Positions 16,834 to 37,986 of a stretch of 38,224 nt of DNA are shown here, piece after piece. This DNA is from Flavobacteriales bacterium (lineage in GTDB: Bacteria; Bacteroidota; Bacteroidia; Flavobacteriales_D; Crocinitomicaceae), in assembly GCA_009885545.1 (NCBI GenBank), contig VFKM01000017.1:1-38224 (forward strand), written 5' to 3'. Under the pieces are notes generated by a model. The model made no database searches, was not told where the DNA came from, and saw nothing but the letters and a program-made list of their open reading frames with translations. Each line of letters starts with the position of its first letter. Position 1 is the stretch's first letter. Both the position numbers and the translations under genes were made by a program.

Positions 16834-18117
16834 ATGAAACTACTTACACTGCTAACTATCGTTACAAATTCAATTGTTTTTGGACAGAATTACACCTCTT
16901 ATTTTTCTGGAAGTCTTATTAACATTGCAACATCTCCAAAAGGTGGAGTTTGTTTAATGGGTGGAGCATCTGAGCACGATGAAGCGATGAAGTGGTTTTT
17001 GCAACAAGCTGATGGTGGGGACGTTTTGGTATTAAGAGCAACAGGTTCGGATGGTTATAACGATTATATGCTGAATCAATTGGGGGTTACAATAAATTCG
17101 GTTGAAACAATTGTGTGTAATAATGTCAATGCTTCACAAGAGGCCTATTTACAACAAAAAATAAATCAAGCAGAAGCTATTTGGTTTGCTGGTGGAGATC
17201 AATGGACTTATGTTTCTTATTGGAGAAATACCCCAGTGGATAGTTTGGTGAATAAGGCAATTGCAGAAAGAAATGTTGTGGTTGGAGGCACAAGTGCTGG
17301 AATGGTAATTATGGGGAAATATTATTTTTCAGCGGAAAATGGCACGGTAACAAGTGCACAAGCACTGGCAAATCCATATAATTCTTTAATGACAGTCAGT
17401 AACGAACCATTCATTGTTAACGAACATCTATCAAATGTAATTACGGATACACATTACGATAGTCCTGACAGAAAAGGCAGACACGTTACTTTTTTAAGTA
17501 GAATCATGCAAGATTATCAAGCTGTCGGAAAAGGAATTGCTTGTGACGAATATACAGCCGTTTGTATTGACACATTGGGTTTTTGTAAAATATACGGCGA
17601 TTATCCAACTTATGACGAAGATGTTTATTTCATTCAACCAAACTGTGAATTATCTGATTTAATGCCAGAAACATGTGTTGCTTCAACTCCTTTAACATGG
17701 AACAGAGGAGGTCAAGCATTGAAGGTATATCACGCAAAAGGTACAACGTTTGGGACACAAACATTCAACCTAACAGATTGGACAACTGGAACTGGAGGCG
17801 TTTGGGAATATTGGTATGTGGAAAATGGGGTACTCACTCAAACTGCTGGAACAGTAATTAATTGTGGGTTAGCAACAATTTTGGATACTGAAGAAAGTAT
17901 GATTTCAATTTATCCAAATCCTGTTTCGGGTAATGAAATTACAATAGAGGGATTGTCTCAGTTCAATTGGATTATCACTGATCTGCAAGGAAAAGAATAT
18001 TCAACACCATCAATTGGCAATCAAATTGATGTTTCAAAGTTATCAAATGGAGTTTATTTGATTAGAATTGAGACTGAATTAGGGAATACTATTGTGAAAA
18101 GAATAGTTAAGAATTGA
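16834..18117 (+). CDS. Secreted cyanophycinase-like peptidase (family S51) with T9SS type A sorting domain
   Basis: 427 residues. A signal peptide is cleaved before Gln (VFG-Q). The S51 domain spans about 35-280: GGVCLMGG start, FAGGDQ at 118-122, and the nucleophile elbow GGTSAGM with Ser154. Related enzymes cleave cyanophycin (CphB) or Asp-containing peptides. The C-terminal about 75 residues form a T9SS type A domain (ISIYPNPVSGNEITIEG, ITDLQGKEY, SNGVYLIRIETELGNTIVKR), so it should be secreted through the outer membrane. It is the last gene of the pheS-ytxJ-cyclase group (10-bp gap) and is followed by a weak terminator. The substrate is not known. Confidence 0.88.
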   Translation: MKLLTLLTIVTNSIVFGQNYTSYFSGSLINIATSPKGGVCLMGGASEHDEAMKWFLQQADGGDVLVLRATGSDGYNDYMLNQLGVTINSVETIVCNNVNASQEAYLQQKINQAEAIWFAGGDQWTYVSYWRNTPVDSLVNKAIAERNVVVGGTSAGMVIMGKYYFSAENGTVTSAQALANPYNSLMTVSNEPFIVNEHLSNVITDTHYDSPDRKGRHVTFLSRIMQDYQAVGKGIACDEYTAVCIDTLGFCKIYGDYPTYDEDVYFIQPNCELSDLMPETCVASTPLTWNRGGQALKVYHAKGTTFGTQTFNLTDWTTGTGGVWEYWYVENGVLTQTAGTVINCGLATILDTEESMISIYPNPVSGNEITIEGLSQFNWIITDLQGKEYSTPSIGNQIDVSKLSNGVYLIRIETELGNTIVKRIVKN

Positions 18118-18251: not shown

Positions 18252-18826
18252 TCGACGGCGAGAGCGACGAACATGACGGCAAGAGCAACGGACGCGACGG
18301 CAAGACCGACGACAACGACGGCGAGAGCGACGGACACGCCGTTCATACCTGCAGGTCAAAACGTGAAGTGCTACGCGTGCAACGGCGCATTCGTCGGGCA
18401 ATACGGCACTTGCTACGATTGTCACCGCAGGAGCGTCGCTTACCACGTGGACAACGTCGTCTATGCCGTGATACCCTGCAGCATTGAACGTGCTAAGCGT
18501 CGCATTAAACGGTGCGACCTGCAGGTATATTCCTCGTTCACTTTTAAGAATCTTTTAACCGATTTTCACTTTTCATAGTCATTTCAGACTTTCTCTTGAC
18601 CATTTTGGGATTATTGAGGACCACTTCGCACGATTCATGTGTCACGTTATAATAATCCTCAATCACTTTTAAGATGTTGTTGATCAATTTTCATTTTGCG
18701 TCGAGCTATTTTACTTTTTTGTGGAGCAATTCACGTATTTTCTCGGTCATTTTAAAAGAATTGCTTTCTAAATGATTGGTTGCGTTGAGCACTTTGAGTG
18801 ATTCCTCGAGCGCTTTCAAAAGTTAA
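18252..18826. repeat. Degenerate tandem repeat with a 21-bp period and a GC-rich core
   Basis: This fills most of an 888-bp gap (18118-19005) without a credible gene. Four clear 21-bp units lie at 18253-18336 (each close to CGACGGCGAGAGCGACGRAC). The phase continues through eight degenerate units at 18358-18526 that keep ACGKS near position 4 and a CTACG/CGTCG-like block near position 14. It then continues through about 14 AT-rich units (18534-18826) of the type TYGAGCAMTTTT. Small phase shifts occur near 18357, 18484 and 18595. 18252-18526 is strikingly GC-rich against AT-rich surroundings. Codon-aligned reading on the minus strand gives heptads such as VALAVMF, VALHVLT, ESLKVLN and ILKVIED, with frameshifts and several stops. 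It may be a decayed heptad-repeat gene or a non-coding repeat. The remaining part of the gap (18827-19005) shows nothing I can name. Confidence 0.7.
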
Positions 18827-26555: not shown

Positions 26556-26749
26556 GGTTCACATGAACCAAGTCCTTTGTCTTTTGTCCAACATCACCTC
26601 GAAGAAATAGAATGGTTCACACGAACCAAGTCCTTTGTCTTTTGTCCAAAGTCACCTCGAAGAAATAGATTGGTTCAAACGAACCAAGTCCTTTGTCTTT
26701 TGTCCAACATCACCTCGAAGAAATAGATTGGTTCACACGAACCAAGTCC
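26556..26749. repeat. 58-bp tandem repeat, 3.3 copies
   Basis: Units start at 26556, 26614 and 26672, with a partial fourth at 26730-26749. Each unit opens with an inverted repeat (GGTTCACACGAACC and variants) and continues with AAGTCCTTTGTCTTTTGTCC and CACCTCGAAGAAATAGAWT. Units differ by only a few bases. The period is not a multiple of three, so it is not a coding repeat. There is no variable spacer, so it is not a CRISPR array. Confidence 0.92.
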
Positions 26750-26754
26750 ATGCT

Positions 26755-33949: not shown

Positions 33950-34900
33950 CTACCCCAACGTATCCTCAACCCATTCTTTCCCCCATTCCTCGATTTCTTT
34001 TTCCGACCACAAAGCAGGATAAAAAACTCTTTTTTGAAATCTTGGAGGCAAGTATTTTTGCCAATTTGTTCCCCCAGTTGCAGCAATATCAGCCGATTGT
34101 TTATTGAGATAATGAACGGCCGATTTGTAATGAGCAAGTGGCCAATTAATATTTACATTGATATCGTTATGTCTAAGAACGTTGATTACTTTATCAGATT
34201 TTTGTTCTTCTGGGCTTAAGCGTTTGTATACTTGCCATAAATTTCTGTGAAGACAGGCTTTCCCCAATTTAAGAAATTCCTCTTGATATCGTTCTTCAAA
34301 CTGAATCAGTGTCAACGTTTTTTTACCAGTACTTAGTTCTGTTGCCCCAGCTTTCCAATAAATATGCTCATACATTTCTTCAATACTCGAAGTAGCCGAA
34401 TAATTTGAACGATGATCTTTTGCAACTAGATTAATAAAATCTGTGCTATACATTTCTATGAAACGATATTGGGCAGATTGGAAACCACTAGCAGGTAACA
34501 AGGACATTCTAAACTGCATGAATTGTTTTTGATCCATGCCTTTCGACATAATGTCAAAACTCACAATTAATGCGTCGAAATAACGATTGATACGAGAAAC
34601 ACGGTCCACAAAGAACTTTTCAGTCAATTCTTTTGTGTCTGCTAATTGCTCGAATTCCTTTAGAGCCAATTGAAAATATAATTCTGTTATTTGATGATAC
34701 ATGATAAAAATGTGCTCATCTGGAAAATTTGTGCGAGGCTTTTGAAGACTTAATAGGGTGTCTAATTCGATATAATCCCAATACTTTACAGTATCAGCAT
34801 ATAATAATCCGTCTAAGTAGGATAATAGATCTTGACCAAGTGAAGAATATTTTTCATTCAATTGTTCTAGTCGGTCTTTTATTTCTGGTGTGATTTCCAT
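33950..34900 (-). CDS. kynA: Tryptophan 2,3-dioxygenase
   Basis: 316 residues, all alpha. Family blocks are FIMYHQITELYFQLALKE (H69), RMSLLPASGFQSAQYRFIEM and the late ATGGTNWQKYLPP, with H257 and H263 shortly before it as candidate haem-ligand histidines. It opens the indole ring of L-tryptophan to N-formylkynurenine in the cytoplasm, the first step of the kynurenine pathway. No other kynurenine gene is in the window, and it appears monocistronic. A consensus promoter lies 18 bp upstream. It is convergent with the HAD phosphatase gene. Confidence 0.9.
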   Translation of the reverse strand: MEITPEIKDRLEQLNEKYSSLGQDLLSYLDGLLYADTVKYWDYIELDTLLSLQKPRTNFPDEHIFIMYHQITELYFQLALKEFEQLADTKELTEKFFVDRVSRINRYFDALIVSFDIMSKGMDQKQFMQFRMSLLPASGFQSAQYRFIEMYSTDFINLVAKDHRSNYSATSSIEEMYEHIYWKAGATELSTGKKTLTLIQFEERYQEEFLKLGKACLHRNLWQVYKRLSPEEQKSDKVINVLRHNDINVNINWPLAHYKSAVHYLNKQSADIAATGGTNWQKYLPPRFQKRVFYPALWSEKEIEEWGKEWVEDTLG

Positions 34901-34918
34901 GTTCAGTATTTAACACAA

Positions 34919-34948
34919 CAAAGGTACACAACGCTCAAACCTTTGCAA
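34919..34948 (-). promoter_or_regulatory. Promoter of tryptophan 2,3-dioxygenase
   Basis: On the minus strand: TTG (34948-34946), 19-bp spacer, TACCTTTG (34926-34919), 18 bases, then ATG. The -33 box lies inside the 41-bp repeat that also faces the opposite gene. Confidence 0.72.
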
Positions 34949-34968
34949 GTAGTTGTTAAATTCTTAAC
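34928..34968. repeat. 41-bp direct repeat, copy 1, in the kynA/T9SS-cargo divergent promoter region
   Basis: 38 of 41 bases match the copy at 36251-36291. Shared features are ACAACGCTCAAACCT, then CAAGTAGTTGTTAAATT, and a conserved inverted repeat GTTAA-N4-TTAAC (34955-34968). It lies about 85 bp upstream of the gene at 35053. Confidence 0.85.
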
Positions 34969-35022
34969 ACAAAAGTTAAATAGTATAACAAACTTCTATA
35001 TGGAATGAATATAAATGTAATG

Positions 35023-35030
35023 TATCTTCG
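35023..35030 (+). promoter_or_regulatory. -7-like element (TATCTTCG) of the T9SS cargo gene at 35053
   Basis: One mismatch to TAnnTTTG, 22 bp before the ATG, with an ATATGGAA block 19 bp upstream. The same pair (ATATGGAA and TATCTTGG) occurs before the gene at 36380. Confidence 0.5.
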
Positions 35031-35052
35031 TACCATACTAATATAAAAGACT

Positions 35053-36246
35053 ATGAAAAAAATTGCTCTGGCATTTTTAATTTTGCCTTTAATTTCTTTC
35101 GGGCAAGTTACAATAACTTCGATACAAAGTGGAAATGCCACTAATCCATTAATTTGGGATTGCACCTGTTTTCCAACGACCGATGACCACATTATCATTA
35201 ATCATGCTGTGAATATGGATGTAGATTGGGCAATTACTGCCGCTGGAAGCATAACGGTGAATAGCAGTGGTTCATTATTACAAGCTGGAGTTCATTCTAT
35301 ATTAATCGATGGTGCTGGTTCTCAATATTTGAATTATGGATCATCCTCCTTTTATAATGTTGCATATACCAATGGTGGTGGTGGAAATAATGCTGGAAAT
35401 TTCTTAATCACACGAGGTTTGTATGTTGGACCTCTATCAGCAGTGTCGAACTCAGGGGTTTTACATGGAATAGATAGCTTATTAGTAGAAGGCTCTTTGA
35501 ATAATTCAGGAACTTGTTATGCTGGGAATATATTAAACACAGGAGTTTTTACTCAATCAGGTCAAATTGTTGGTGATTCAGTTGGTAATACAGGAACATT
35601 TAACTCTACTGGAGGATATATGTATTTTAATGCTTTTGGAAATACAGGGACATTTAACATGACTGGCACTGGTTTTATGGATGTTCTTTATAATTGGGCA
35701 AATATTGGAGATTTTACGCTTGATCCAGGATTAGAAATTTTTGCGCATAATGATTTCTATAATGGAGATAGTCTAGGAGGATCTGCGAATTTACACAACA
35801 ATGGATTGATAGAAGTGGCAAACAATTTTCTAAATGGATATTTTGTTGACGGTACAGGGAGTTTTTGTATTTCAAATGACACGTATAATGTTGGATTAAT
35901 GAATGGAACATTTGATTTTTGTGATAATACTGGTGGCGGGATTGATTTAAATACTGGAACTGTAGCGCCTGGGATCACTTTTTGTTCAACAGGATGTAGT
36001 GTGGGGGTTGTGGAGAATATCGTTTCAACACTATATGTTTTTCCTAATCCATCAACTGGTATGTTTGAGATTGATTCACAAAATCATTATACAAGAGGAA
36101 GTGTGTTTTCTGTTTCTGGTAAATTAATTGAGCAAATTGTAATAGAGGAAAACACAATAAATTTAAATCATTTGACAATAGGAACTTATATTGTTACGCT
36201 GCAAAATCTAACGACTACAGAAAGAATAAAAATAATTATTCAATGA
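35053..36246 (+). CDS. Secreted beta-helix-like protein with T9SS type A sorting domain
   Basis: 397 residues. A signal peptide is cleaved before Gln (SFG-Q). The middle part (about 45-300) is rich in Gly, Asn, Ser and Thr with short recurring phrases (NSGTCYAGNILNTGVFTQSG, GNTGTFNSTGGYMYFNAFGN, GNTGTFNMTGTGF, ANIGDFTLDPG), as in right-handed parallel beta-helices. The last about 75 residues are a type A sorting domain (LYVFPNPSTGMFEID, VFSVSGKLIEQ, LNHLTIGTYIVTLQNLTTTERIKIII). It should be exported by the T9SS and attached or released at the surface. Monocistronic, flanked by the 41-bp repeats. No enzymatic residue recognised. Confidence 0.82.
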   Translation: MKKIALAFLILPLISFGQVTITSIQSGNATNPLIWDCTCFPTTDDHIIINHAVNMDVDWAITAAGSITVNSSGSLLQAGVHSILIDGAGSQYLNYGSSSFYNVAYTNGGGGNNAGNFLITRGLYVGPLSAVSNSGVLHGIDSLLVEGSLNNSGTCYAGNILNTGVFTQSGQIVGDSVGNTGTFNSTGGYMYFNAFGNTGTFNMTGTGFMDVLYNWANIGDFTLDPGLEIFAHNDFYNGDSLGGSANLHNNGLIEVANNFLNGYFVDGTGSFCISNDTYNVGLMNGTFDFCDNTGGGIDLNTGTVAPGITFCSTGCSVGVVENIVSTLYVFPNPSTGMFEIDSQNHYTRGSVFSVSGKLIEQIVIEENTINLNHLTIGTYIVTLQNLTTTERIKIIIQ

Positions 36247-36250
36247 GTAA

Positions 36251-36291
36251 ACAACGCTCAAACCTGCGCAAGTAGTTGTTAAATTATTAAC
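36251..36291. repeat. 41-bp direct repeat, copy 2, upstream of the lipoprotein gene at 36380
   Basis: Matches 34928-34968 at 38 of 41 bases, including GTTAA-N4-TTAAC (36278-36291). It starts 5 bp after the stop codon of the T9SS cargo gene and about 90 bp upstream of the next gene, nearly the same distance as copy 1. Confidence 0.85.
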
Positions 36292-36344
36292 GTGAAAATT
36301 TCCAATCGATAATAATTCATATGGAAAATGGTTTAATTTTATAG

Positions 36345-36352
36345 TATCTTGG
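36345..36352 (+). promoter_or_regulatory. -7-like element (TATCTTGG) of the lipoprotein gene at 36380
   Basis: 27 bp upstream of the ATG, preceded at 20 bp by an ATATGGAA block like the one before the gene at 35053. Confidence 0.45.
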
Positions 36353-36379
36353 TGTAACACGATACTATTTTCTATTCAC

Positions 36380-36949
36380 ATGAAAGCATACTTTATTTTC
36401 TTCACGATTATAAGTTGCACCCTTTTTCAGAGTTGTAACATGTTGCGCTATAATAAACTTAGCTGGGAAGTATCGAACTTAAATTTAGAACTTAAATCAA
36501 AACTGAATAAAAAGACAAAAGATCCTTTTGTTGTTATTCTTCACAATGCTTATCCGTACGACACATTGCACCAAACGATTGAAGTTCAAGTTGCAAAAAT
36601 AGAAGACAAAACCTTGATCGGTGCGGTATCGAAAATCGATCAATACAAGGTGATTGATCGATACTATCAACAACTTAAAAATAAAAGTGTGGACGGATTT
36701 GCTATAACCAAGATCGACAAGCAAGACAGGAAAAGTGAATTGAATCAATTTCATGTATGGTTGGATGACAGTATTTATCACTCAATAACTTCGGATGTGA
36801 GAATCAAAACAAATCAAATCCTAGCTCTTGAGAAAATAAAAAAGGTTAAGACAAAAATGTTTCTGATCATTTTAGGCGTTTTAGTTGTTTCCTTACTTGG
36901 TTTAATGCTTTTAAGTATTCAAAATATGCCCATAAATATTACATTTTGA
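36380..36949 (+). CDS. Hypothetical lipoprotein with a C-terminal transmembrane helix
   Basis: 189 residues. The N terminus has a signal peptide and lipobox (LFQSC, Cys19). The centre is polar and Lys-rich, with a small alpha/beta look (DPFVVILHNAYPYDTLHQTI, KIDQYKVIDRYYQQL). A clear hydrophobic helix (MFLIILGVLVVSLLGLMLL) precedes a short tail (SIQNMPINITF). Lipidation plus a C-terminal helix suggests retention at the inner membrane, which is unusual. I recognise no family. Its upstream region is related to that of the T9SS cargo gene at 35053, so the two may be co-regulated. Confidence 0.62.
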   Translation: MKAYFIFFTIISCTLFQSCNMLRYNKLSWEVSNLNLELKSKLNKKTKDPFVVILHNAYPYDTLHQTIEVQVAKIEDKTLIGAVSKIDQYKVIDRYYQQLKNKSVDGFAITKIDKQDRKSELNQFHVWLDDSIYHSITSDVRIKTNQILALEKIKKVKTKMFLIILGVLVVSLLGLMLLSIQNMPINITF

Positions 36950-37093: not shown

Positions 37094-37101
37094 TATCTTT
37101 G
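37094..37101 (+). promoter_or_regulatory. -7 element TATCTTTG of the bestrophin gene
   Basis: An exact consensus match, 18 bp before the ATG at 37120, leaving a very short leader. It argues against the TTG at 37099 as start codon, because that TTG lies inside the promoter box. Confidence 0.6.
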
Positions 37102-37119: not shown

Positions 37120-37986
37120 ATGGTAGATTATAACCCTAAGAGTTGGATTAAATTAATTTTCGCATCTCATAAAAGTGACACTTTCCGAATCCTTCGGAAG
37201 GAAATTGCATATATTGGAATTTTTTCATTAATCGTTTCATTTATAGTCCTTCACTATTTTCCAAAGGCTGTCGTACTTGAGAAATTAATTGCAATGTATT
37301 CCTTGATTGGTTTTGTCCTTTCTCTTTTGCTCGTTTTTAGGACGAATACAGCTTATGATCGATGGTGGGAAGGACGAAAAAAGTGGGGGGAAATAGTCAA
37401 TGATACTCGAAATTTGGCAATCAAATTTTCCGCAATTCTAATTGATGACAAGGACAAGGACTTTTTTAAAAAAATGATTCCAAATTTTGCTTTTGCAGCA
37501 AAAGAACACTTAAGAAAAGGAGTTGTTTTCGAAGAGTTAGATTTGACAAAAGAGCAATTTGATGTATTGATTGGCAAAAAGCATGTTCCCATAGCAATTA
37601 GTGAAATGATGTACGCTAAACTAATTGAGCTAAAAAGATCAAACAAAATTACGCAAGAAGAATATTTTGTTTTAGACAAAAACATAAATGCTTTAATGGA
37701 CAGCTTAGGCGCTTGCGAACGAATAAAAAACACCCCGATACCCGTGTCATATAGTTTGTTTATTAAAAAATTCATCTTTATGTACGTGATAACATTGCCA
37801 CTTGCATTTGTCATTCAATTCGGGTATTTTTCAGCCTTAATTGCAACGTTTGTCTTTTATGTTCTTGTAAGTATGGAAGTTCTAGCTGAAGAAATAGAAG
37901 ACCCATTTGGTAATGATGAAAGTGATCTTCCAACTGACACATTGAGTGAAAGAATTAAAATTAACATAGAAGAAGTTTTGAGTTGA
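37120..37986 (+). CDS. Bestrophin-family anion channel
   Basis: 288 residues from ATG 37120. Typical features are an N-terminal SWIKLIFASHKSDTFR segment, a first helix pair (IAYIGIFSLIVSFIVLHYF, LIGFVLSLLLVFRTNTAYDRWWEGRKKWGEIVND) with the family signature R-T-N-x-A-Y-x-R-W-x-E-G-R, and a second pair (FIFMYVITLPLAFVIQFGYF, ALIATFVFYVLVSMEVLAEEIEDPFGNDESDLP). The E-E-I-E-D-P-F-G end is shared with bacterial bestrophins such as KpBest. These form pentameric channels in the inner membrane; ion selectivity varies between anions and cations. Monocistronic with its own promoter. Confidence 0.92.
   Translation: MVDYNPKSWIKLIFASHKSDTFRILRKEIAYIGIFSLIVSFIVLHYFPKAVVLEKLIAMYSLIGFVLSLLLVFRTNTAYDRWWEGRKKWGEIVNDTRNLAIKFSAILIDDKDKDFFKKMIPNFAFAAKEHLRKGVVFEELDLTKEQFDVLIGKKHVPIAISEMMYAKLIELKRSNKITQEEYFVLDKNINALMDSLGACERIKNTPIPVSYSLFIKKFIFMYVITLPLAFVIQFGYFSALIATFVFYVLVSMEVLAEEIEDPFGNDESDLPTDTLSERIKINIEEVLS

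Follow-up and report, generated by a model that had tools for sequence, protein, structure and literature searches.

Sequence evidence for a lineage-specific copy of a conserved tryptophan 2,3-dioxygenase control region in a member of the Crocinitomicaceae

A repeated element near the tryptophan 2,3-dioxygenase gene

The DNA discussed here is a stretch of 38,224 nucleotides (the window) from a Flavobacteriales bacterium of the Crocinitomicaceae (assembly GCA_009885545.1, contig VFKM01000017.1), whose genome is denoted G000. Its tryptophan 2,3-dioxygenase (TDO) gene is followed by a first copy of a short element with a forward promoter (E1-P1), a gene for a secreted protein, a second copy with its own forward promoter (E2-P2), a gene for a probable lipoprotein, and a bestrophin-family gene, in that order. 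The individual features are listed below, with a strand where one was assigned.

33950-34900, minus strand: TDO gene (PF03301, E 2.3e-22)
34901-34914, no strand: O2, inner palindrome GTTCA-N4-TTAAC abutting the TDO start codon (from pattern and alignments)
34919-34926, minus strand: -7 box of TDO, TACCTTTG, of the TAnnTTTG type (consensus in PMC2483708)
34924-34968, no strand: E1, copy 1, upstream half of the TDO control region by BLAST and pairwise comparison
34945-34948, minus strand: -33-type box of TDO, TTGC, 18 bp from the -7 box and within the 41-mer
34955-34968, no strand: O1, outer palindrome GTTAA-N4-TTAAC, 54 bp from O2 (centre to centre)
34998-35030, plus strand: P1, ATATGGAA and the -7-like box TATCTTCG, aligning with P2 beyond shuffles
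35053-36246, plus strand: secreted protein gene with a type IX secretion C-terminal sorting domain (PF18962, E 3.6e-10)
36247-36291, no strand: E2, copy 2, truncated (positions 24-68 of the 69 in the control-region model, 27.7 bits)
36319-36352, plus strand: P2, ATATGGAA and the -7-like box TATCTTGG, aligning with P1 beyond shuffles
36380-36949, plus strand: probable lipoprotein gene (lipobox recognized by eye, no Pfam match)
37094-37101: TATCTTTG box before the bestrophin gene (by eye)
37120-37986, plus strand: bestrophin-family gene (PF25539, E 7.7e-70), the usual divergent neighbor of TDO in the genus

A first-pass annotation of this DNA had claimed 38 matches over 41 bases between positions 34928-34968 and 36251-36291, with the inverted repeat GTTAA-N4-TTAAC kept in both copies. 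Recomputation returned the same identity, and the inverted repeat lies at 34955-34968 and 36278-36291 and nowhere else in the window. With BLAST, the match runs further to the left (to 34924 and 36247, respectively), giving 45 bp at 91% identity (34924-34968 and 36247-36291). At the base composition of the window, the chance expectation for same-strand pairs matching at 38 or more of 41 positions is 1.2e-9, and a scan of direct pairs found, apart from E1 and E2, only the array at 26568-26751 at this level. The latter is a short tandem array between two reading frames, in which 41-mers recur 58 and 116 bases apart, either exactly or at 39/41. Another repeat pair (34/41, spacing 42) lies at 18253-18335 and overlaps a frame at 18273 with a Thr/Ala-rich start.

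The annotation had also proposed searching the genome for the 41-mer. A 39-base pattern (three positions free, at most 3 mismatches) found E1 and E2 in the assembly (3.16 Mb, 89% complete) and no third copy; the reversed control of the pattern gave 0 matches in the genome. Order-wide, the element was matched in 3 of 299 sampled genomes, namely G000 and the genomes G133 and G276, which each hold one copy, immediately 5' of TDO.

The TDO control region across the genus

TDO was found in 25 of the 26 genus genomes, and 25 upstream regions were compared. In G000 the whole control region spans 34901-34969 and corresponds to positions 1-69 (69 bp) of the model described below. As the first-pass annotation had stated, E1 covers the -33 box of TDO: on the minus strand, 18 bp separate TTGC (34948-34945) from TACCTTTG (34926-34919), and TTGC-N18-TACCTTTG thus matches a Bacteroidetes-type -33/-7 promoter on the TDO side. 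A TAnnTTTG box is found 14-21 nt before the TDO start codon at all 25 genus loci, and TTTG, TTGC, or TTGT stands 18-19 bp from it at 21 of them (the exceptions being G311, G228, G307, and G313). The palindromes are similarly widespread. O2, searched as the loose pattern GTTNA-N4-TNAAC at most 3 bases from the start codon, is found in 22/25 upstream regions, and O1, searched as GTTAA-N4-T(T/G)AAC, likewise in 22/25. Both occur together in 21/25, with a spacing of 54 bp in 19 regions and of 55 bp in the other 2.

The alignment consensus of the TDO upstream regions was made without G276 and E2, and loci L141 and L142 (too short) as well as L143-L147 lie outside the analysis. A model of the region (R1, 69 positions) was built from 17 of the 25 TDO upstream regions, omitting the near-copies G276 and G309, the divergent G311 and G228, and also G284, G306, G307, and G313. 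In 23 of the 26 genus genomes, R1 matches at most 3 bases from the TDO start; the match lies directly against the start in 19 and is separated from it by 3 bases in 4, and 6 of the 23 had no part in training the model. Among the best 150 candidates scored per genome, G228 and G312 gave weak matches located elsewhere and G311 gave none; since these 150 were taken from thousands of candidates in each genome, weak further copies may escape this search. Outside the genus the picture is patchy, the loose pattern being found within 130 bp in 9 of 50 extracted family upstream regions. Judged from these alignments, the region is conserved at TDO genus-wide.

To which gene does the element belong? The next gene is divergent from TDO at 15 loci (a bestrophin-family gene at 12, the secreted protein gene in G000, G159, and G303), and O1 is kept at all 15. 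At the remaining 10 loci the next gene is co-directional with TDO, leaving no divergent promoter, and O1 is kept at 7 of these. The loci were sorted by reading frames alone, with G276 scored as divergent on its visible bestrophin start and the forward frame 115-576 of G076, antisense to a 581-aa frame, treated as spurious. Because O1 persists at 7/10 loci without a divergent gene, the element belongs to TDO, and E1 is, by sequence comparison, the upstream half of TDO's own conserved control region.

This bears directly on the proposal that TDO, the secreted protein, and the lipoprotein share a single regulator acting at GTTAA-N4-TTAAC. In its favor, both copies retain O1, and its spacing to the forward -7 box downstream is nearly the same in each (65 and 64 bp between centres). 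Yet the retention of O1 where no divergent gene exists means that TDO alone explains E1, and across the genus the element goes with TDO rather than with the envelope genes. Moreover, neither the TDO core promoter nor the inner palindrome is part of the second copy, G159 and G303 carry the secreted protein gene with a single copy of the region, and the kynureninase genes lack the site (see below). We therefore regard such shared control as quite unlikely.

The second copy and the history of the locus

E2 begins with the base that directly follows the TGA of the secreted protein gene and is truncated, comprising neither the TDO -7 box nor O2. With the best 150 candidates scored per genome, G000 is the only one of the 26 genus genomes with a second R1 match at E <= 0.01, this match being E2 itself. 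After E1 and E2, the next R1 match in the G000 genome has an E value of 0.32 (best 150 of 4301 candidates scored). A third place, 17346-17389, reached E 0.0055 in a search of the window only; it has an E value of 0.44 against the genome and was taken as a chance match.

The similarity of the two copies does not end with the element. As the first-pass annotation had described, matching boxes follow downstream, with ATATGGAA at +70/+68 and TATCTT(C/G)G at +95/+94 from the element starts; when the second flank was shuffled 3000 times, an exact 8-mer shared at a matching offset (within 2) arose 64 times. The -7-like boxes of P1 and P2 each differ by one base from TAnnTTTG. The right flanks as a whole align with a score of 53, against 34.3 +/- 4.7 for shuffles (0/2000 as high), and a stricter local alignment is weaker (50/2000 as high). 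The left flanks, on the other hand, show no alignment (908/1000 shuffles as high). As the right flanks align and the left ones do not, about 120 bp were duplicated, with a sharp left end. When 19 other genus flanks (the close relatives G133, G276, and G314 among the sources) were compared with the flanks of E1 and E2, none was comparable (the best with 12/300 shuffles as high), which indicates that the forward promoter pair is peculiar to G000. The duplicated promoter cassette suspected in the first-pass annotation is thereby supported as an element plus forward promoter of about 120 bp. On these comparisons, a conserved TDO control region and its divergent promoter were duplicated together in this lineage, a real, if fairly ordinary, event.

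What the second copy does is harder to read. It may be a relic of a gene insertion, an exchange, or a tandem duplication between TDO and the bestrophin gene, with O1 playing no role for the lipoprotein gene. E2 starts exactly past the stop codon of the secreted protein gene and lacks O2 and the TDO -7 box, the secreted protein gene is at the locus in only 3 of 25 cases, and the palindrome is not enriched genome-wide, all of which would fit such a relic. Against it, the 41 bp are free of indels at 93% identity (38/41), whereas the flank alignment comprises 57 matches, 15 mismatches, and 21 gap columns (79% ungapped identity, 57/72), and the forward -33/-7-like boxes are preserved in both copies. 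The difference in identity gives a one-sided Fisher p of 0.048 with gaps ignored, a marginal test of constraint in which the flank identity is inflated by the optimization of the alignment. The better keeping of the element hints at constraint on E2. We consider a rearrangement relic somewhat improbable but a serious rival to a functional E2.

The neighboring genes bear on the history of the locus. G159 and G303 have full-length relatives of the secreted protein gene at the corresponding position, making 3 of 25 genus loci with G000. In both, the gene sits between TDO and the bestrophin gene, and only one copy of the control region was found (best 150 candidates scored per genome). At these loci (L060 and L061), the last four bases of the secreted protein gene are also the first four of the bestrophin gene. 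Unlike in the window, the two genes probably form one transcript there, judging from their arrangement. The lipoprotein gene was not seen at the TDO locus in the genus loci compared. It has two distant matches (28-29% identity) in G299, where no match of the TDO control-region model accompanies them, and a search for its relatives in genome contigs gave 86 pattern matches of which 0 were confirmed.

The secreted protein of G000 is 52-54% identical to those of G159 and G303, which are 69% identical to each other; for the bestrophin, the same comparisons give 72-73% and 89%. A recent transfer of the gene from G159- or G303-like strains is unsupported, as its divergence runs in step with that of the bestrophin. 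In a TDO tree of 23 genus rows and 3 outgroups, the carriers of the secreted protein gene do not form one clade; thus an ancient presence followed by several losses and an old transfer are both possible. The direct repeats E1 and E2 could themselves mediate loss of the gene.

A possible regulator and comparison with known systems

Taken together, we slightly favor the following account. The TDO control region would consist of a -33/-7 promoter placed between O2 (at the start codon) and O1 (upstream of the -33 box). This layout, with a promoter between palindromes that are separated by about five turns of the helix, suggests that a dimeric protein regulates TDO. Such a tryptophan-catabolism regulator would probably bind O1 and O2 and perhaps bridge them. 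The lineage of G000 then acquired a duplicate, in direct orientation, of about 120 bp that comprise the upstream half of the TDO region with O1 and the divergent forward promoter, and copy 2, now between the secreted protein and lipoprotein genes, would most likely serve as the promoter region of the lipoprotein gene through P2. With each forward -7 box about 65 bp downstream of it, O1 could also touch the forward genes. That the copied operator extends the reach of a tryptophan-catabolism regulator, so that tryptophan or kynurenine would control both the secreted protein and the lipoprotein, seems doubtful to us.

GTTAA-N4-TTAACA has 9 strand matches (6 places) in the genome against 11 in the reversed control, and the palindrome was found in 0 of 21 kynureninase upstream regions, searched within 220 bp of the start at the 21 loci over the family cut-off. 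As the palindrome is not enriched and the kynureninase genes lack the site, there is no sign of a wider regulon; enrichment upstream of functionally linked genes, the mark of a shared operator, was not found, and we reject both a genome-wide palindrome regulon and a kynurenine-pathway regulon. Besides E1 and E2, the palindrome occurs at four places: L148 and L156 inside long frames, L155 inside a 152-aa frame, and L153. At L153 (1502-1515, G000:C145), the GTTAA-N4-TTAAC site lies just past a frame that we take, by eye, to be enolase and before a frame for a small exported protein. No Lrp/AsnC gene was found among the four other neighborhood genes scanned, and a literature search of limited reach returned no report of a TDO regulator in Bacteroidetes.

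The locus is a clear case in which a promoter-operator region was copied before another gene while relatives display the single-copy state, and its two-palindrome TDO control region is conserved across one genus. If E2 is functional, it would offer a small example of regulatory rewiring through duplication.

Three known systems invite comparison. In Clostridia, the Rex operator has the consensus TTGTTAANNNNTTAACAA (PMC8457756), which the palindrome core TGTTAA-N4-TTAACA resembles, so that the palindrome could be read as a Rex-type redox operator. The systems differ in that the N-terminal domain of Rex (PF06971) was found in 0 of 26 genus genomes, with controls positive in 7/14 (6 over the cut-off). 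This largely refutes Rex as the regulator; we reject it and regard this reading as extremely improbable. In Pseudomonas, the Lrp/AsnC-type regulator KynR controls the kynurenine pathway (PMC4938989). It is alike in being a regulator of tryptophan catabolism and is a functional analogue, and the kynureninase genes studied here, unlike that system, carry no such palindrome upstream (0/21). Finally, the housekeeping-type promoter of Bacteroidetes is described as -33 TTTG and -7 TAnnTTTG (PMC2483708). The TDO promoter is alike, with TTTG, TTGC, or TTGT at 18-19 bp from TAnnTTTG at 21 of 25 loci, and the forward boxes, TATCTT(C/G)G, deviate from the -7 consensus at one base, whereas the forward -33 element is ATATGGAA instead of TTTG. 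The consensus has no flanking palindromes, unlike the TDO region, in which O1 and O2 frame the promoter.
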